This document shows, in pieces, positions 5,992-14,909 of a stretch of 64,000 bases of DNA (its first letter is position 1; each line of letters begins with the position of its first letter). The position numbers and the translations under genes were made by a program. The stretch comes from Actinomycetota bacterium (GTDB taxonomy: Bacteria; Actinomycetota; Actinomycetes; Streptosporangiales; Streptosporangiaceae): assembly GCA_027314515.1 (NCBI GenBank), contig DAHVAR010000231.1:1-64000 (forward strand), in the 5' to 3' direction. The notes under the pieces are model-generated. The model saw only the letters and a list, made by a program, of their open reading frames with translations. It made no database searches and was not told where the DNA came from.

Positions 5992-6025
5992 CCGCCGGCC
6001 CGCGCTTCATGGCGCGGGCCGGCGG
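5992..6025. terminator. Strong GC hairpin (possibly bidirectional)
   Basis: Perfect 14-bp stem CCGCCGGCCCGCGC / GCGCGGGCCGGCGG with 6-nt loop TTCATG, just 3' of the minus-strand gene ending at 6048. Confidence 0.7.
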
Positions 6026-6047
6026 CAGCTGAGCGCCGGCGGGCGGC

Positions 6048-7046
6048 CTACAGGCCGGTCTTCGCCGTCGAGATGTCGTAGCTCGAGCCCCAGTACCACT
6101 GAGTGGCGTCGGAGCCGGGCACGATGTGCTGGTAACCGGTCGGGTCTGCGATCCACCACCGGATATGCGACTGCATCCAGGCAGGCAGCGTGGCGATGGC
6201 CGCCTGGGTGGCTGGCCACTCCGAGATCATCGTGTAGATGCAGGCCAGCGAGTTCGGGTTGGCGTGCAGCTTGGCGCGGGCCCAGGTCGCCGCCATCGAT
6301 GGGGTCGCATCCCCGGGCTCGACGTCCAGCACGTCGGCATTCGGATCGGTTCCGTTGGTGTCGATCCACAGCACCTTTGGCCGGCCGGCCACCTGCGCCG
6401 GCGACACCGCGAACGGGCCGCTGGCGTAGGTGGCCACCATCTGGCCAGCCGGGATCGCCGACGGGGTCACCGAATCGTAGAAGTTGTAGGGCTGCTGTGG
6501 TGCCGCCTGCTGTGCAGAGCCTGGCTGGCTGCCGCCAGCGGCCGGTTGCCCCGGCCCGGTTGTGGCCGCCGGCGTAGCCGAGCCGCCGGACGTCGGCGAC
6601 GCGGATGGCTGCGCCCCGCCCGGCCGGGCCGGGCCGGGCGTACCTCGCGGATGCGGGCTGGCCGCCGCCGGCACGGTCGCGGCCAGCGGGCTTGCGCCGA
6701 GGCCAGTTCCCCCGATGCCGGGAGCGGCGAGCGGCGCGGACCCGCCGAGGGATGGGACCGCCAGCGGGCCGGTCCCGGCGAGCGCGGGCGCCGCGAGTAC
6801 CGGCGCCGCCAGCACCGCGGCCGGCTTACCCGGCGCGGCCGTGCGAGCGCTCGTCAGGGCTGCCACATGCGAGGGGCCGGCGATGCCGCCGGTGGCGGCA
6901 AGGGCCGGGCTGGCCAGCGCGACGGCCGCAACGCCGGCGATGGCCGTTACCGCCGCGGCCGTGGCCCCGGCCTTCAGGCGCGAGGGACGGCGGTCAGACG
7001 GGCCGGCCTGAGACGGCGATCCTGCCGGGATGAAGCGGGGATGCAC
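6048..7046 (-). CDS. Secreted Ala/Pro-rich protein with C-terminal DUF1906/GH25-like domain (paralog A)
   Basis: N-terminal hydrophobic segment (AAAVTAIAGVAAVALASPALA), long low-complexity linker, then YDSVTPSAIPAGQMVATYASGPFA...VLWIDTNGTDPNADVLDVEPGDATP...WWIADPTG..HIVPGSDATQWYWGSSYDIS; probable GTG start at 7046. Confidence 0.75.
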   Translation of the reverse strand: MHPRFIPAGSPSQAGPSDRRPSRLKAGATAAAVTAIAGVAAVALASPALAATGGIAGPSHVAALTSARTAAPGKPAAVLAAPVLAAPALAGTGPLAVPSLGGSAPLAAPGIGGTGLGASPLAATVPAAASPHPRGTPGPARPGGAQPSASPTSGGSATPAATTGPGQPAAGGSQPGSAQQAAPQQPYNFYDSVTPSAIPAGQMVATYASGPFAVSPAQVAGRPKVLWIDTNGTDPNADVLDVEPGDATPSMAATWARAKLHANPNSLACIYTMISEWPATQAAIATLPAWMQSHIRWWIADPTGYQHIVPGSDATQWYWGSSYDISTAKTGL

Positions 7047-7137
7047 GGTGAGCCTTTCGTCGGGCGCGGGGGGAGCGCTCGGCGGGCACCCAGGGCGTGG
7101 CCGGCCAATGGCATGGCGCCGGCTCGGAACGCACGGT

Positions 7138-7179
7138 GACGCGGGGCAGGGCGAAGCGTTGCCTCGGGGCAACAATCAC
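7138..7179 (-). promoter_or_regulatory. Conserved upstream element shared with paralog B (copy A)
   Basis: GACGCGGGGCAGGGCGAAGCGTTGCCTCGGGGCAACAATCAC; 35/42 identical to 9339-9379 and at about the same distance from the paralog start. Confidence 0.65.
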
Positions 7180-7288
7180 GTGCTGGGTGCTTTCGGTTAC
7201 TCATCGTGAACGCCGAAAGCGTGTCCGGTTATGCCGGAAATGACAAGGAGTGCGGTATGACGTCCCTCACGCTCGCCCGGGGCCGGGC

Positions 7289-8167
7289 CTAACCAGGCAG
7301 CGCGTCAGCAGCGGGAGAGGGAAGCCGCTCGAATCGCGGCGCGCGCCGCTCGATGAAGGAGCTGACTCCCTCGCGGAAGTCCGGCCGGCCAAAACTCTCC
7401 ACCATCAGGCCGCGCGCCTCGCGCTCGGCAGCCAGCAGGCCCGCGTGCAGCTGCTGGTACACCTGGCGCTTCATGATCGCCATTGAGGCTGGCGATGAGG
7501 TTGCCGCCAGATCGCGGACGTACTGCTGAGCGTGGGGCAGGACTTCCGCGCCCGGCAGCGCCGCATTCACCAGGTGCAGCGCGGCGGCCTGCGTCCCGGA
7601 GATCTTACGGGACGAGAACAGCAAGTCGAGCGCCACCGCCGGGCCGGTGAGCCGCGGCAGCATCCAGCTGGTGCCCCACTCGGCGATAAGCCCGCGCTGT
7701 GCGAACGCGGTCATCAAGATTGCGTCCTCGGCCATGAACCGCAGGTCGCAGGCCAGCACGATCGGCACGCCCATGCCCGCGACCGGCCCGTTGATGGCCG
7801 CGATCACCGGCTTCGGCACCGACATCAGGTAGGTGTAGGTTCCGAGGTGCAGGTCGTCCCCGAACGCCGCGTCGCCGGGATCAGACGCTAGCTCCCCGGT
7901 CGGCGTCTCGGTGCGGTGATCACCCGAGCTGATGGCCGCAAGCCGGTTCATGTCAGCGCCGGCGCAAAACCCCCGCCCGGCGCCGGTGATCACGATGCCC
8001 ACCACCGCGGGATCGGACTCCGCCCGGCTGACCGCATGACGGACCTCGAAGCTCATCCGGTCCGTCCATGCGTTGAGTACCGCCGGGCGGTTCAGCGTGA
8101 TCGTGGCAACCGGGTCGGCGACCTCATACCGGATTTCCTCATAGCCGACCCCCTGGTGCGCTGACAC
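7289..8167 (-). CDS. Enoyl-CoA hydratase/isomerase family protein
   Basis: VATITLNRPAVLNAW, GAGRGFCAGADMNRL, AAINGPVAGMG crotonase motifs. Confidence 0.92.
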   Translation of the reverse strand: MSAHQGVGYEEIRYEVADPVATITLNRPAVLNAWTDRMSFEVRHAVSRAESDPAVVGIVITGAGRGFCAGADMNRLAAISSGDHRTETPTGELASDPGDAAFGDDLHLGTYTYLMSVPKPVIAAINGPVAGMGVPIVLACDLRFMAEDAILMTAFAQRGLIAEWGTSWMLPRLTGPAVALDLLFSSRKISGTQAAALHLVNAALPGAEVLPHAQQYVRDLAATSSPASMAIMKRQVYQQLHAGLLAAEREARGLMVESFGRPDFREGVSSFIERRAPRFERLPSPAADALPG

Positions 8168-8300
8168 GAAGGGCCTCCTGATGCCGTCGGGCGCTGTCGC
8201 GGCGCCTCTCGATCGCTTGGAGGCATTTTGGCCGCAACGCGCCGTCCCGCGTCAAGGGGCGTCAGCCGGCCGAGCCGCCGGCCGGCAGCCAGCCGCCTCG

Positions 8301-9242
8301 TCACACCTTGTCGAAGTTGGGTTCGGCCATCGAGATGTCATAGCTCGATCCCCAGTACCACTGGGTCGCCTGGGAGCCGGGCACGATGTGCGGGGAGCCG
8401 GTCGGGTCGGCCACCCACCAGCGGATCCGGGACCTCATCCAGGACGGCAGCCCGGCCACGTCTGCCTGTATCTGCGGCCACTGCGAGAGCGAGGTGTAGA
8501 CGATCGCCACCTGGCCGGGGTGCGACCTGAGCCTGCTGGAGACCCAGCCGGGGACCTGCGAGGGCGACGCCGCGCCTGGCTCCACGTCGATGACCTGCGC
8601 CGCCGGGTCTGTGCCCAGCGTGTCGATCCACAGCACGTTCTTCCGCCCGGCCACCGCCGAGGCCGGGACCGGGCGCGCTCCGGTCGCGTAGGTAGCGACT
8701 TCCGCGCCAGCCGGGACAGCCTGCGGCGTCACCGAGTCGTAGAACATGTAGGGCCTGGCTGCCGTGGCCGGCCTGGCTGCCGTGGCTGGCCTGGCGGGTG
8801 CGGCTGACTTGCCGGGCGTCGCGGAGCTGCGGCCGGCCGGATGGCGCCCGGTGGATATGTTCGGTTTCGCCACGGCCGCTGGCGGCTTCTGCCCCGGCCT
8901 GCCGTGCTGCGCCGCTGGCGCCGTGGACTGCCGCAGGCCGAGCGCGCCGCCGGCATCGGCCGTGCCGTGGTTCTGGCGGGACGCTCCCGCCGCCGGGCTG
9001 GTTGCAGCGGCATAAGGCGCCGCGGCCGGCCGCGGCGCGAGGGCGGGGGAAATCGCGCCCAGCGAGACCCCGACCGAGATGCCCACGATGGCCACCGCGC
9101 CCGCGGCCGTGGCGGCAAGGACGCCGGGCGGCATCCGACCAGCGGGCGGCCGCCGGTGCGAATGGCGCTCGGCATGGCCCTGGGTGTAGTGGTGACCGGC
9201 CGCATGCCGGGGACGGTGCCGTGAGCTGCGACGAGAAGACAA
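8301..9242 (-). CDS. Secreted protein with C-terminal DUF1906/GH25-like domain (paralog B)
   Basis: YDSVTPQAVPAGAEVATYATG...VLWIDTLGTDPAAQVIDVEPGAASP...WWVADPTGSPHIVPGSQATQWYWGSSYDIS; closely matches paralog A; hydrophobic N-terminal segment. Confidence 0.75.
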   Translation of the reverse strand: MSSRRSSRHRPRHAAGHHYTQGHAERHSHRRPPAGRMPPGVLAATAAGAVAIVGISVGVSLGAISPALAPRPAAAPYAAATSPAAGASRQNHGTADAGGALGLRQSTAPAAQHGRPGQKPPAAVAKPNISTGRHPAGRSSATPGKSAAPARPATAARPATAARPYMFYDSVTPQAVPAGAEVATYATGARPVPASAVAGRKNVLWIDTLGTDPAAQVIDVEPGAASPSQVPGWVSSRLRSHPGQVAIVYTSLSQWPQIQADVAGLPSWMRSRIRWWVADPTGSPHIVPGSQATQWYWGSSYDISMAEPNFDKV

Positions 9243-9338
9243 GTCTGACCCTGGGTGGCGCGCAGGCTGCGCTCGGTGTAGCCCAGGTCACTTCCGGCGC
9301 GCCGCCAGTGCCGGCGGAACGGAAGAGCACGAGGATCT

Positions 9339-9379
9339 GACGCGGGTCAGGGCGACGCGTTACTTGGGGTAACCATCAC
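9339..9379 (-). promoter_or_regulatory. Conserved upstream element shared with paralog A (copy B)
   Basis: GACGCGGGTCAGGGCGACGCGTTACTTGGGGTAACCATCAC. Confidence 0.65.
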
Positions 9380-9578
9380 ACGTACACGCCTGGGTGTGCT
9401 TGTTGTGACACAAGTGAAGTACGAGAAACGGCCAGCCGGGCCGGAAACGCCCAAACCAGGTTCTATGATCTGCGTCACATAGCGGCCAGGCCGACTGCTC
9501 CGGTACCTGACCGCAGTTTGAAGAGCACCCGCATGGGGATGCCCCTGCCATCGCCGGCTCAGCTCAGGGGGGATACCA

Positions 9579-9668
9579 GTGGGGAAACAAGCGCGCATCG
9601 GCCTGCTTCTGGCGGCGACCTGCTGCCTGCTGGCAGTGATGGTGGACTGGATCGTCGAGGATCTCTAA
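9579..9668 (+). CDS. Putative 29-aa membrane micropeptide
   Basis: GTG start after AGGGGGG; translation VGKQARIGLLLAATCCLLAVMVDWIVEDL, a single hydrophobic helix with basic N-terminus; not in the ORF track because of size. Confidence 0.4.
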   Translation: MGKQARIGLLLAATCCLLAVMVDWIVEDL

Positions 9669-9756
9669 GCGCCTAGCGCAAGCTGGCGCAGATACGGATA
9701 ATCGTCATGGCGCACTGCGGCCACCCGTGCGTATCCGGCGGGTGGCCGGGTAGGCT

Positions 9757-10404
9757 TTGCCGATGGCCGACCACCATCTGGAGATGCCGCGGCCAGCCCA
9801 GTTGCTTCGCACCACGGGCTGGAGCCTGACCGAGTCCGTCGGCTTGCCCGTCCTGGCCCTGGCCCTTGGCGCCTGGTTGTGGGGTCGCGACGCCGGGCTG
9901 CTGGCCGGCCTGGCGGTTGTCTGGATCACGGCGGTTATCCGCAAGATCCACAGCGGTTCGGTGCCGAGCCTGGTGATAATCTCGGCGATCCTGCTCACCA
10001 TCCAGACCGCGGTGGCGGTCGGCACCGGCCAGCTATGGATCTTCCTGCTGCATTTCCCGGCCGGTAATCTCTGCCTGGCCATCCTGTTCGCCCGGACGGC
10101 AAGTGGCCCTAACCCTCTCATCGCCCGGCTAGCCGCCGAGGTAGTGGCCCTCAGGCAGCCGACCACCCCTAGCCCCGGGCTGCACCGTTTCTTCCAGCGC
10201 GCGACGTGGCTATGGGCAGCCATCTTCCTGCTGCTCGCGCTCTGCCTCGCCGTCTTGCTCGCCACCCAGCCGACCGCGAGCTTCCTGCTGTTCTCCACCA
10301 TCGCCACGGTCGGGCTCATCGCGGCGGGTGCCGGGGCGTCGGCGCTGTGGCTGCGGGTCGTGCTGCGCAGGCACGGCCTGGGCTTCCGGTTCGTCCCCGC
10401 CTGA
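9757..10404 (+). CDS. Integral membrane protein (VC0807/DUF3159-like)
   Basis: Multiple hydrophobic helices; RKIHSGSVPSLVIISAILLTIQTAVAVGTG. Confidence 0.65.
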   Translation: MPMADHHLEMPRPAQLLRTTGWSLTESVGLPVLALALGAWLWGRDAGLLAGLAVVWITAVIRKIHSGSVPSLVIISAILLTIQTAVAVGTGQLWIFLLHFPAGNLCLAILFARTASGPNPLIARLAAEVVALRQPTTPSPGLHRFFQRATWLWAAIFLLLALCLAVLLATQPTASFLLFSTIATVGLIAAGAGASALWLRVVLRRHGLGFRFVPA

Positions 10405-10688
10405 GCCCTGCGGCAGCCGCCTGCGCCCGGCTGAGAACAGCCCGAGCGCAGGGGCCGGGGCCAACGAGACGGGCCAGGCAGGAGTCACCTGACCGCGCGG
10501 GGGCATATCTGAGGCAGGTCGCTCGCGCCGCCGGCCACGGCAGGCTTAACCGGCCGGTGCGCGTGCTTACGGCGACTGCCTTGATTGCGGAGCAGCAGCC
10601 CGCGATCTGAGAGCTCCGCTCCGCCCGTCCTCACGAGGGTCCGCGCCTGCACTCCGGCAGAACCCGACGACGCGAGCGGTTCCGGGAG

Positions 10689-11909
10689 GTGACGCGGTTG
10701 CCGGAGGCAGTGGTGCTATCCGGTTCGCTTGGTCTCGGACACGAGATGATGACGCGAAGCTGCACCAGCCTGCTAGAGCGGTCTGGATGGCACACTCGCA
10801 GCCTTGACAGCATGGCGCTGCTCGGTCCGCGAGCCGGCCTGGTCGCCGAGCGGCTGTTCGGGGGGCTTGTCTCAGTTCCGGGTATCTACGACGGGCTGCA
10901 CTTCGCGCACCTTCGCACCGGCAGCACCCTGGCCGGCCTGATGGCCGGGCAAGCGGTCGCCAGGCTTGCTCCAGCGCTGGCAGCGGACCTGGACCGGCGG
11001 CCCGCCGACCTCATCCTCAGCGTATTCGCGACCGGAGCGGCAGCCGCGGCGAAACTCAAGCCCGGCGCACCGCACCGGCGGACCGTAGTGCTGTGCACCG
11101 ACGTGACGCTGCACCGGATCTGGGTCTGCGAAGGCACCGACCTGTTCCTGGTCACCTCGCCCGCAGCAGCGGCGTCGGTCCGCCGGTTTCTGCCCCGCGC
11201 GGTGGTATCGGTCGTGCCGCCGCCTGTCCGTCCCGCCTTCTACGCCGCCCCCGCGCAGCGCGAAGCCAGGCAGGCATTCGGGATTCCGCTCGGCGAGCCG
11301 TGCCTGCTGGTGATCGACAGCGGCTGGGGATTCGGCCCGCTCGTCCAGAGCGTGGCCGCGCTGGCACAGGCTGGCGTGCACGTGCTGGCCGTCGCCGGCC
11401 GCCGGCGTGCGATCGAGCGGCGACTGCGGGCACTGGCCCGCACGGTGCCGCGGGTAAGGCCGTTCGGATTCACCGACCGGGTGCCCGAGCTGATGGCGGC
11501 CGCGGACGTCGTGCTGACCCTGCCGGGCGCGACGACCTGCAGTGAGGCTCGCGTCGTCGGACGGCGCCTGCTGCTGCTGGATGTCATGCCGGGGCACGGA
11601 CGGGACAACCTGCAGCACGAACTGGAAATGGGGGCCGCCGACGTCTGCGGTCCGGCTGCTGCCGGGGTCACCGCGAGCGCGCTGGCGGTGCTGGATAAGA
11701 CGGCCGGGCTGCCGCCGCCATCCGGCTTGGCGCCGCCCTGGGAGCCCGCGTACCTGGCCGCCTTCCGCCAGATCGGCCTCGACCTGCCGGAAACGCCGGC
11801 CGCGGGCCGAGATCCGGGCAGCAGGGTCCCGGTTGGCGCGCGCTCTGCCGGGCAGTACGGAGGGCACGACCCGGAAGGCTCGCCCGGTCCTTACCACCCC
11901 GGCGGATGA
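10689..11909 (+). CDS. Glycosyltransferase, MGDG-synthase/MurG (GT28) type
   Basis: VVLSGSLGLGHEMMTRSCTSLLERSGW...; C-terminal LTLPGATTCSEARVVGRRLLLLDVMPGHGRDNLQHELEMGAAD; RBS GGGAGG. Confidence 0.8.
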   Translation: MTRLPEAVVLSGSLGLGHEMMTRSCTSLLERSGWHTRSLDSMALLGPRAGLVAERLFGGLVSVPGIYDGLHFAHLRTGSTLAGLMAGQAVARLAPALAADLDRRPADLILSVFATGAAAAAKLKPGAPHRRTVVLCTDVTLHRIWVCEGTDLFLVTSPAAAASVRRFLPRAVVSVVPPPVRPAFYAAPAQREARQAFGIPLGEPCLLVIDSGWGFGPLVQSVAALAQAGVHVLAVAGRRRAIERRLRALARTVPRVRPFGFTDRVPELMAAADVVLTLPGATTCSEARVVGRRLLLLDVMPGHGRDNLQHELEMGAADVCGPAAAGVTASALAVLDKTAGLPPPSGLAPPWEPAYLAAFRQIGLDLPETPAAGRDPGSRVPVGARSAGQYGGHDPEGSPGPYHPGG

Positions 11910-11926
11910 CAGGAGGCACGTCCGGT

Positions 11927-13540
11927 ATGCGCACTCTCTTCCTGAATCCTCCGTCCTACGAGGGCTTCGACGGCGGTGCTGGCGCTCGCTACCAGGCGAA
12001 GCGCGAGATTCGCTCCTTCTGGTACCCGACCTGGCTGGCCCAGCCGGCCGCGATCGTGCCGGACAGCCGGCTGGTCGACGCTCCCCCGGCCGGCCTCGCC
12101 CTCGCCGACGTCGCTCCGCTGGGCCGCCAGCACGACCTCGCTGTCCTGCACACCAGCTCGCCCACCTTCGCCGGTGACGTCAAGGTGGCCGAAGCCCTCA
12201 AGGCGGCCAACCCGTCGCTGCTGGTCGGGTTTGTCGGGCCCAAGGTCGCCGTCGAACCAGAGGCATCGTTGCGGGCATCGCCGGTCATCGACTTCGTGGC
12301 CAGGGAAGAGTTTGACTTCACGATCGGCGAGGTAGCGCGGGAGCGTCCGCTGGCCTGCATCGATGGCATCAGCTACCGCGCGAAGAGCGGCCAGGTAGTG
12401 CACAACGCCGCCCGCCCGATGCTGACCGACATGGACAGCCTGCCATTCGTGGTGCCGGTGTATAAGCGGGACCTGCGCGTAGAGGACTACTTCATCGGCT
12501 ACCTGCGCCACCCCTACCTGTCCATGTACACCGGCCGGGGATGCCGGTCCAGATGCACGTTCTGCCTCTGGCCGCAGACCGTCGGCGGTCACCATTACCG
12601 GACCCGGAGCGTCGCCAGCGTGCTCGCCGAGGCTGAGCTCGCGTTTCAGGTGTTTCCGCAGCTCAAGGAGCTGTTCTTCGACGACGACACGTTCACCGAC
12701 GACCGCCCGCGCGCGGAGGCCACCGCCCGCGGCCTGGCCCGCCTGGGCATCACCTGGTCGTGCAACGCCAAGGCCAACGTGCCCAGGCAGACCCTTCAGG
12801 TGCTGGCAGACAGCGGTCTGCGCCTGCTGCTGGTCGGCTACGAGTCCGGCAACCAGCAGGTGCTGAACAACGTGAAGAAGGGCCTGCGGGTCGACCGAGC
12901 GCGGCAGTTCGCCAGCGATTGCCGCGAGCTGGGCATCACCGTGCACGGCACCTTCATCCTCGGCCTGCCCGGCGAGACGCAGGAGACTATTCAGGAGACA
13001 ATCCGCTTCGCCCGCGAAGTCAATCCGCACACGATCCAGGTGTCGGTCGCCGCCCCCTACCCCGGCACCGAGTTGTACCGGCGCGCGATGGAGAACGGCT
13101 GGCTGCCGCAGGACGATGGCGGCGCGCTGGTCAGCGAGGCGGGCACTCAGCTGGCGGCACTTTCATACCCGCATCTCGGGCGTACCGAGATCCTCAACTC
13201 GGTCGACGATTTCTACAAGCGCTTCTATTTCCGCGCCGGGAAGCTCGCCGAGATGTCGGCCGAGATGCTCCGTCAGCCCAGCACCGCTGGCCGCAGGCTC
13301 CGGGAGGGCGCAGAGTTCGTTCGCTTCCTGGGCCGGCGCGACCGCGCGCCCGCACCGCAGTTACCGGCAGCCGACGTGGTGGCCGCCGCTCCGGCCGGAG
13401 GCGGCCAGCAGAAGGGGAGCGTAGTTAATGCGCGTACTGCTCGTGCACCCAAGCGCGCTGATGTACTCCGAGATCTTCCTGCGGCTCGAGCCGCTTGGCC
13501 TGGAGCGGGTGGCGTCGGCGCTGCTGGCCGACGGCCATGA
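11927..13540 (+). CDS. hpnJ: B12-binding radical SAM protein, HpnJ-like (hopanoid biosynthesis)
   Basis: MRTLFLNPPSYEGFDGGAGARYQAKREIRSFWYPTWLAQPAAIVPDSRLVDAPP resembles the HpnJ N-terminus; CRSRCTFCLWPQ radical SAM CxxxCxxC. Confidence 0.75.
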   Translation: MRTLFLNPPSYEGFDGGAGARYQAKREIRSFWYPTWLAQPAAIVPDSRLVDAPPAGLALADVAPLGRQHDLAVLHTSSPTFAGDVKVAEALKAANPSLLVGFVGPKVAVEPEASLRASPVIDFVAREEFDFTIGEVARERPLACIDGISYRAKSGQVVHNAARPMLTDMDSLPFVVPVYKRDLRVEDYFIGYLRHPYLSMYTGRGCRSRCTFCLWPQTVGGHHYRTRSVASVLAEAELAFQVFPQLKELFFDDDTFTDDRPRAEATARGLARLGITWSCNAKANVPRQTLQVLADSGLRLLLVGYESGNQQVLNNVKKGLRVDRARQFASDCRELGITVHGTFILGLPGETQETIQETIRFAREVNPHTIQVSVAAPYPGTELYRRAMENGWLPQDDGGALVSEAGTQLAALSYPHLGRTEILNSVDDFYKRFYFRAGKLAEMSAEMLRQPSTAGRRLREGAEFVRFLGRRDRAPAPQLPAADVVAAAPAGGGQQKGSVVNARTARAPKRADVLRDLPAARAAWPGAGGVGAAGRRP

Positions 13541-14909
13541 GGTCCGGCTGGTCGACTTGCAGGTCTACCGCCAGGCAGAACTGCGGCGACAGGTCGCCGA
13601 GTTCCGGCCTGACGCCGTCGGCGTCAGCCTGAACTACCTGGCCAATGTGCCCGAGGTCGTAGACCTGGCAAAGTGGATCAAATTTGCCCTGCCGGACTGC
13701 TTCGTCTTCGCCGGCGGGCACAGCGTGTCGTTCGTGGCCGAGCAAGTACTCGGCCACGCGGGCGGTGCCATCGACGTCGTGCTGAAGGGGGAAGGCGAGA
13801 CGGGCGCACCGGCTCTTCTCGCCGCACTGCCGGACCGGGCGCTGACGGAGGTACCGGGCGCCGTCACCGCGGACGGACCCGGTCGGCCGCCGAAGATGCT
13901 GCACAGCCTTGACGAGCAACTGCCGGCTCGGCATCTCGGCGGTCGGCGCCGCAAGTACTTCATCGGCGTGATGGACCCGGCTGCGTCGATCGAGTTCACC
14001 CGCGGGTGCCCCTGGGACTGCTCGTTCTGCAGCGCATGGACCTTCTACGGGCGCAGTTACCGCCGCCTGTCGCCGGAGGCCGCGGTCGAGGACCTCAGCC
14101 GCATTCAGGAGCCAGGCGTCTTCATCGTCGATGACGTCGCGTTCATCAAGGCAGAGCAGGGCGACGAAATCGCGCGGCAGCTCGAGCGCCGCCGGATTCG
14201 CAAGCAGTACTACCTGGAAACCCGATGCGACGTGCTGCTCCGCAACGAGGAAGTATTCCGCCGCTGGAAGCGCCTCGGGCTGAACTACATGTTCCTCGGC
14301 CTCGAGGCGCTCGACGAGGAGGGCCTCACCGCCTTCCGCAAGCGGACCACACCACAGGTGAACAACAAGGCGCTTGAGGTCGCGCGGTCCATCGGGCTGT
14401 CGGTCGCCATCAACATCATCGCCGATCCGGACTGGGACCAGGCACACTTCGCCTACGTGCGGGAATGGGCCATGAGCGTGCCGGAAATCGTCAACATCAC
14501 GGTCCAGACGCCGTATCCGGGCACCGAGACGTGGCTGACCGAGTCGCGGCGGCTGACCACTCTCGACTACCGCCTGTTCGACGTGCAGCATGCCGTGCTC
14601 CCGACCCGGCTGCCGCTGCACCGCTTCTACACCGAGCTGGTCACGACCCAGGCTGTGCTGGCGCGCAAGCACCTCGGGGCAGCGGCACTCGCCAAGACCG
14701 CTGGCATCGTCGCGCGCCAGCTAGTCCGCGGGCAGGCCAACTTCGCCAGGATGATCTGGAAGTTCGACAAGGTCTACAACGCCGACCGGCAGTATTCCGA
14801 GCACCTGGCGCCGGTCGAATACCAGCTGCCGCCGCCAGCGGAGCATCCGGTGTCGATGCCCGGCCGGACGCAGCTGTATGTCCACCTTCCGCTGTCACGG
14901 AGGTCATGA
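13428..14909 (+). CDS. hpnR: B12-binding radical SAM protein, HpnR-like (hopanoid C-3 methylase family)
   Basis: MRVLLVHPSALMYSEIFLRLEPLGLERVASAL, SLNYLANVPEVVDLAK, ASIEFTRGCPWDCSFCSAWTFYGRSYR, PYPGTETWLTESRRLTTLDYRLFDVQHAVLPTRLPL. Confidence 0.75.
   Translation: MRVLLVHPSALMYSEIFLRLEPLGLERVASALLADGHEVRLVDLQVYRQAELRRQVAEFRPDAVGVSLNYLANVPEVVDLAKWIKFALPDCFVFAGGHSVSFVAEQVLGHAGGAIDVVLKGEGETGAPALLAALPDRALTEVPGAVTADGPGRPPKMLHSLDEQLPARHLGGRRRKYFIGVMDPAASIEFTRGCPWDCSFCSAWTFYGRSYRRLSPEAAVEDLSRIQEPGVFIVDDVAFIKAEQGDEIARQLERRRIRKQYYLETRCDVLLRNEEVFRRWKRLGLNYMFLGLEALDEEGLTAFRKRTTPQVNNKALEVARSIGLSVAINIIADPDWDQAHFAYVREWAMSVPEIVNITVQTPYPGTETWLTESRRLTTLDYRLFDVQHAVLPTRLPLHRFYTELVTTQAVLARKHLGAAALAKTAGIVARQLVRGQANFARMIWKFDKVYNADRQYSEHLAPVEYQLPPPAEHPVSMPGRTQLYVHLPLSRRS

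Follow-up and report, generated by a model that had tools for sequence, protein, structure and literature searches.

Two neighbouring genes for secreted paralogs, A and B, are preceded by the same short element, within which an inverted repeat carries a matched exchange between the two copies. Is this element a structured 5' leader RNA, a DNA operator or what remains of a gene duplication? The question was raised by a sequence-only reading of the window, that is, the whole 64,000-nt stretch of DNA analysed here. The window belongs to a host genome of 5.9 Mb (G000), and its named relatives are metagenome assemblies of Streptosporangiaceae.

The two 42-nt sequences were found where they had been described, with 35 of 42 matching positions and one gap. 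Local alignment of the two upstream regions, about 255 nt each, scored 52; in 1000 Markov shuffles the score never exceeded 27. The 3' edge of the element lies 92 nt (A) and 97 nt (B) 5' of the start codons GTG 7046 and TTG 9242, as had been noted. Both genes are on the minus strand, and the functional sense of the element is the reverse complement of the plus-strand letters quoted earlier: copy A reads GTGATTGTTGCCCCGAGGCAACGCTTCGCCCTGCCCCGCGTC and copy B GTGATGGTTACCCCAAGTAACGCGTCGCCCTGACCCGCGTC. For copy A the inverted repeat stood as quoted (GTTGCC/GGCAAC); the arms of copy B are GTTAC/GTAAC. The exchange of G to A in one arm and of C to T in the other is a genuine two-sided change of one base pair.

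The conserved unit extends well beyond the quoted 42 nt, over 7086-7190 in copy A and 9279-9397 in copy B. The 42-nt element is one part of a larger structured 5' leader of about 110 nt, a feature that the earlier observation understates. Related sequence continues as far as the start codon of both genes, and upstream of each copy there is a CRP-like box. The parts are given below, where R1 and R2 denote covariance models built from 11 leaders and from 32 sequences, respectively.

7086-7190, minus strand: leader RNA copy A, whole-model match (R1 74.9 bits, E 1.2e-11 genome-wide; R2 66.8 bits)
7183-7190, minus strand: copy A, P1 5' strand GCACCCAG, partner 7086-7093 (in MFE; covariation)
7086-7093, minus strand: copy A, P1 3' strand CTGGGTGC (covariation, MFE)
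7179-7183, minus strand: copy A, P2 5' strand GCACG, partner CGTGC 7131-7135 (family covariation)
7131-7135, minus strand: copy A, P2 3' strand CGTGC (family covariation)
7158-7173, minus strand: copy A, P3 hairpin GTTGCC-CCGA-GGCAAC, the inverted repeat noted earlier (covariation, tree-aware null)
7140-7153, minus strand: copy A, conserved core CGCCCTGCCCCGCG, P3b hairpin (CGC/GCG) with conserved loop (RNAalifold, pair counts)
7100-7123, minus strand: copy A, P4 hairpin GCCGGC/GCCGGC, sequence variable (MFE)
7064-7080, minus strand: copy A, P5 hairpin GAGCGC..GCGC, just 5' of the Shine-Dalgarno sequence (leader context comparison)
7053-7058, minus strand: copy A, Shine-Dalgarno GAAAGG
7256-7271, minus strand: copy A, CRP-like box CGTGAGGGACGTCATA, 81 nt 5' of P1 (8/10 consensus positions)
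6048-7046, minus strand: gene A, secreted protein of an uncharacterised family, GTG start
9279-9397, minus strand: leader RNA copy B, whole-model match (R1 88.3 bits, E 1.6e-14 genome-wide; R2 75.1 bits)
9389-9394, minus strand: copy B, P1 5' strand CCCAGG, partner CCTGGG 9282-9287 (covariation, MFE)
9282-9287, minus strand: copy B, P1 3' strand CCTGGG (MFE)
9381-9385, minus strand: copy B, P2 5' strand GTACG, partner CGTGC 9327-9331 (MFE, alignment)
9327-9331, minus strand: copy B, P2 3' strand CGTGC (MFE)
9359-9373, minus strand: copy B, P3 hairpin GTTAC-CCCAA-GTAAC (covariation, tree-aware null)
9341-9354, minus strand: copy B, conserved core CGCCCTGACCCGCG, P3b with loop (RNAalifold, pair counts)
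9258-9274, minus strand: copy B, P5 hairpin (leader context comparison)
9249-9252, minus strand: copy B, Shine-Dalgarno AGGG
9464-9479, minus strand: copy B, CRP-like box TGTGACGCAGATCATA, 82 nt 5' of P1 (9/10 consensus positions)
8301-9242, minus strand: gene B, secreted paralog of gene A, TTG start

Fold and covariation of the leader

The fold was proposed by inspection of the alignment and then tested. Helix P1 (CACCCAG/CTGGGTG) closes the domain and encloses P2, P3, P3b and P4, the latter a hairpin of variable sequence. P2 is formed by GGCGTG plus GATG pairing with CATC plus CACGCC and holds P3 (GTTGC/GCAAC) inside it, whereas the core CGCCYTGANCCCGCG folds into P3b, a short hairpin with a conserved loop of 8-9 nt, CCYUGANCC. 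RNAalifold recovered P2, P3 and P3b unaided. Folding of single sequences was modestly better than that of shuffles (z -1.4 to -1.9). At one locus (L046, 2621-2765) a stretch of CACCGC repeats enlarges the P4 region, while P2, P3 and the core are preserved.

The final alignment comprised 66 distinct rows, and 91.4% of its pair cells held standard pairs. Two-sided changes occurred at 17 of 21 pairs, in 149 cells. None of 500 shuffles reached these values; with P3b included, 19 of 26 pairs covaried. The covariation score was 0.365, compared to at most 0.096 when the partners were slid by one to three columns. All nine P2 pairs showed two-sided changes across the leader family, and P3 was swapped wholesale among copies, from GUUGC/GCAAC to GCCGC/GCGGC, GUUAC/GUAAC or GGCCC/GGGCC. 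The core GCCYTGANCCSGCG contained unpaired nucleotides that were highly conserved across the 66 rows.

Since kinship among sequences can inflate covariation counts, we added a tree-aware null in the style of R-scape, in which parsimony substitutions on a FastTree topology were re-placed at random columns in 200 simulations. Six of the 21 proposed pairs reached E < 0.05 by an RNA-aware score and four by a G-test. The pair noticed in the sequence-only reading (columns 36-70) was significant in both scores, with E = 0.0002-0.004 over the 21 proposed pairs, to which the quoted test was restricted; a G-test on all 6105 column pairs was weaker, with a best E of 0.05-0.07. This pair was GC in 36 sequences, AU in 13, GU in 13 and CG in two, and unpaired in one. 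A structured RNA leader, one of the two possibilities voiced at the outset, is thus strongly supported.

Distribution and downstream genes

Homologs of the secreted protein were gathered from the host and 343 genomes of Streptosporangiaceae. Twenty of their leaders with the element were gathered by pattern and aligned. Close homologs whose upstream sequence was long enough numbered about 28, and about 21 of them had the element. Seven homologs of the window family from the same genus (L024, L044, L045, L064-L067) had no detectable copy despite available upstream sequence. Within the host genome, a strict core pattern gave five matches, of which only the two in the window stood in the right context. 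Model R1 revealed a third copy (G000:C230:47155-47264, E 1.5e-6) before an unrelated transglycosylase-like gene; the strict pattern had missed this copy because it is too diverged, so that the covariance model was needed. With R2 the element was detected in 15 of 69 sampled genomes and in 14 of 68 genera of Streptosporangiaceae, with up to seven copies per genome. This amounts to 65 non-identical copies, all from one family and found with covariance models built from few seeds.

Outside the family we found no credible match, neither in a class search (88 genomes) nor in the four genomes of other families within an order search (91). Three weak matches beyond Streptosporangiaceae (E 0.03-0.06) resembled coding sequence on inspection and were rejected. 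In the order search the well-sequenced genera of Streptosporangiaceae gave no match either. The host range is narrow, and the leader is restricted to a group of mostly uncultured soil actinobacteria within this family.

The leader precedes genes of at least five domain families, on the same strand and at near-fixed spacing to the start codon. The downstream proteins comprise AggPromo_Cterm, SLT and SLT_3 (transglycosylase or lysozyme-like), NlpC/P60 and Rv2525c_GlyHyd-like proteins, the window's own family and, below threshold, M23-like ones. The gene behind the C230 copy encodes a secreted protein whose C-terminal domain is of the aggregation-promoting-factor, transglycosylase-like type (NF052397); homologs of this protein in other genomes carry the leader as well. 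It is plausible that all downstream genes encode secreted cell-wall proteins. In L114 and in L124/L143 we observed two genes in tandem, each preceded by a separate leader, with about 1.2 kb between the two copies.

No Pfam or NCBIfam model matched the family of genes A and B. A fold model of medium confidence (pLDDT 67) gave a weak match to 1SFS (TM 0.47, E 0.11), which we take to be a DUF1906 (Rv2525c-like) protein. Elsewhere, a bona fide Rv2525c-like protein (L128) carries the same leader. Further along the window, at 11906-14909, two long adjacent ORFs of radical SAM-like type, with a cobalamin-type N-terminal domain and CxxxCxxC motifs, follow a glycosyltransferase-28-like gene.

Unrelated enzymes behind the leader share a similar start and signal peptide (M-S-x-R..RKPS-x-LT-A). 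Because of these shared signal peptides, promoter, leader and signal peptide may have spread together as one module, which counts against a regulatory reading.

Promoter box, translation start and proposed switch

A CRP-type box, TGTGA-N6-TCAYA, reached a score of 8 or more out of 10 in 60 of the 64 leaders whose upstream sequence was long enough, compared to about 6.5% of shuffled upstream sequences. The boxes start mostly 73-86 nt 5' of P1 (about 78). They resemble the CRP/FNR-type site TGTGA-N6-TCACA in 8-10 of 10 positions; this predicted site lies outside the RNA. It is from this upstream box that we infer transcription of the leader together with its gene. With a predicted activator at the usual -41.5, transcription would begin roughly 25-30 nt ahead of P1, which would give an mRNA leader of about 180 nt.

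On the other side of the domain, P5 (GAGCGC..GCGC, with the variants GCACG/CGTGC and GCGTGC/GCACGC) stands directly 5' of a GAAGG-type Shine-Dalgarno sequence. Shine-Dalgarno sequence, start codon and open reading frame followed P1 after 34-54 nt in 52 of 65 copies, most commonly after exactly 39 nt (19 copies). TTG accounted for 44 of the 52 recognizable starts, an unusually strong preference for a weak start codon. We found no intrinsic terminator and no terminator-like U-run after the leader. Nor did we find a covariation-supported antiterminator, anti-Shine-Dalgarno or mutually exclusive pairing, although P5 abuts the Shine-Dalgarno sequence. The conserved loop can be complementary to the Shine-Dalgarno region, with CUGACCC facing GGGUCAG in copy B and UGAACC facing GGUUCA in L016, but over 49 leaders cognate pairs were no better than permuted ones (p = 0.18). 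When all aligned windows were scanned, pairing of the P1 5' strand with the Shine-Dalgarno region reached z = -2.7, which was not significant after correction.

Our preferred reading, which we consider rather probable, is a lineage-restricted, riboswitch-like leader: a new structured RNA family that would act in cis as a switch on cell-wall enzyme genes. A CRP-type (cAMP-receptor) activator just upstream would drive transcription, leader included. A small molecule or a protein might then bind to the P2/P3/P3b junction or to the conserved loop and change P1 and P5 beside the Shine-Dalgarno sequence, which would set translation of the enzyme or early completion of the transcript. The lack of a terminator-like U-run and the tight spacing to the start codon point to translation start as the putative output. 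In its logic the scheme would resemble the control of Streptomyces cell-wall hydrolases by the c-di-AMP (ydaO) riboswitch, but through another RNA.

Other readings and known systems

Alternatively, the leader may not be an aptamer for a small molecule but a binding site through which an RNA-binding protein, or a small RNA, controls a regulon of cell-wall enzymes. Such regulators commonly target a single terminal loop of high conservation on a conserved hairpin, here CCYUGANCC, and one RNA governing many genes of a single regulon would fit as well. The ensemble of P1, P2, P3, P3b and P4 with conserved junction nucleotides, however, exceeds most protein sites in elaborateness, no candidate protein emerged, and we regard this explanation as rather unlikely. 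A passive structured 5' UTR, setting mRNA stability or a low level of translation without sensing anything, seems to us distinctly unlikely. The mostly TTG starts and a stable P5 beside the Shine-Dalgarno sequence would indeed give low basal translation. The near-invariant unpaired nucleotides of the P3b loop would, however, not be needed for stability alone, and a conserved architecture shared across a multi-gene regulon is what sensors typically show.

The c-di-AMP riboswitch ydaO-yuaA (RF00379) deserves a closer comparison. In Streptomyces, the ydaO leader of rpfA, the closest parallel in function, binds c-di-AMP, leading to premature termination, and in S. coelicolor ydaO precedes rpfA and six other cell-wall hydrolase genes (reviewed in PMC10117811). 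The new leader resembles it as a long structured 5' leader before actinobacterial secreted cell-wall hydrolases, a likeness of function that does not prove membership. The host genome itself has, at other loci, three ordinary ydaO riboswitches over the cut-off (C152:5129-5295, C123:20278-20453 and C214:55319-55491; L073-L075); those at C123 and C214 precede genes for secreted proteins of NlpC/P60 type. That the targets are of the same kind might suggest a diverged ydaO. The conserved nucleotides and the helix layout, however, differ: the new leader has the CCYUGANCC loop and GAUG-P3, the ydaO elements of this genome have GGGGACCCA, GGGGUGAAUC and CCCGUCAGCUAACC, and the new leader is smaller and has a CRP-type box at fixed distance upstream. 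RF00379 gave no match at E <= 10 over window positions 6000-10500 or at eight homologous loci, and R2 did not match the three ydaO loci. The doubt expressed earlier about a ydaO assignment was well placed, and we consider a diverged ydaO highly improbable.

A symmetric DNA operator for a transcription factor, the other possibility raised in the sequence-only reading, might be suspected from paralog A, which alone has a palindromic look, and from the operator-like CRP-type box nearby. The symmetry is, however, not kept as DNA. G-U pairs outnumbered mismatches in P2 (69 cells to 42) and in P3 (24 to 10), which speaks for RNA and not for a DNA palindrome; the 13 G-U pairs against one mismatch at columns 36-70 would break such a palindrome. 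Variable loop lengths, covarying P1 and P2 helices that span up to about 100 nt, the embedding in a multi-helix structure and the near-fixed distance to the start codon argue against it too, and we rejected the operator as scarcely credible.

The same low credence goes to a translated leader peptide acting as attenuator. Copy B and some homologs have an open frame, GTGATGGTT...CCCTGA, which in copy B runs from an ATG within the P3 stem to the TGA of the core. The end-to-end spacing, however, was spread over all three frames (22/16/10), and the ATG is absent from the second major gene group; the frame variation led us to reject this reading. Functionless similarity left from a recent duplication, as the neighbouring position of paralogs A and B might suggest, can practically be dismissed, since the element is conserved upstream of homologs in other genomes, in 14 genera, before unrelated genes and with compensatory changes.

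Among catalogued RNAs, Rfam 15 gave no gathering-level match over the whole window, none that was meaningful at E <= 10 over positions 6000-10500 or at the eight homologous loci, and no match near 20 transglycosylase loci. Covariation, conserved loops and coherent downstream genes are features that the leader shares with orphan riboswitch candidates (Weinberg 2010, PMC2864571; Narunsky 2024, PMC11109978), none of which, however, matches it in Rfam 15. The YjbJ motif, also located before a transglycosylase gene, was reported only from Streptococcus (PMC11109978). The element was not described in the literature we searched, in which subscription papers were partly covered. On these comparisons the leader is a previously uncatalogued, well-supported RNA structure, a new architecture of putative cis-regulatory RNA and a riboswitch candidate.

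Within our preferred reading of a riboswitch-like leader, a more specific proposal could equally well prove right or wrong: a new riboswitch class, in which a CRP-activated, ligand-sensing RNA would coordinate secreted peptidoglycan-active enzymes in uncultured Streptosporangiaceae, alongside the c-di-AMP riboswitch that these genomes also have, and independently of it. A cell-wall precursor, a turnover product or a second messenger may be its ligand.

For the timing of actinobacterial wall-cutting enzymes, RNA-level knowledge comes mainly from a single riboswitch, ydaO. In a lineage represented mostly by metagenome assemblies from soil, another RNA architecture, unrelated to ydaO, seems to have taken charge of a comparable gene set. 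The genes with this leader, including the uncharacterised secreted family of the window, probably form a cell-wall remodelling set. As a testable orphan riboswitch candidate with a coherent regulon, the leader focuses the search for a ligand on cell-wall turnover and nucleotide signalling.
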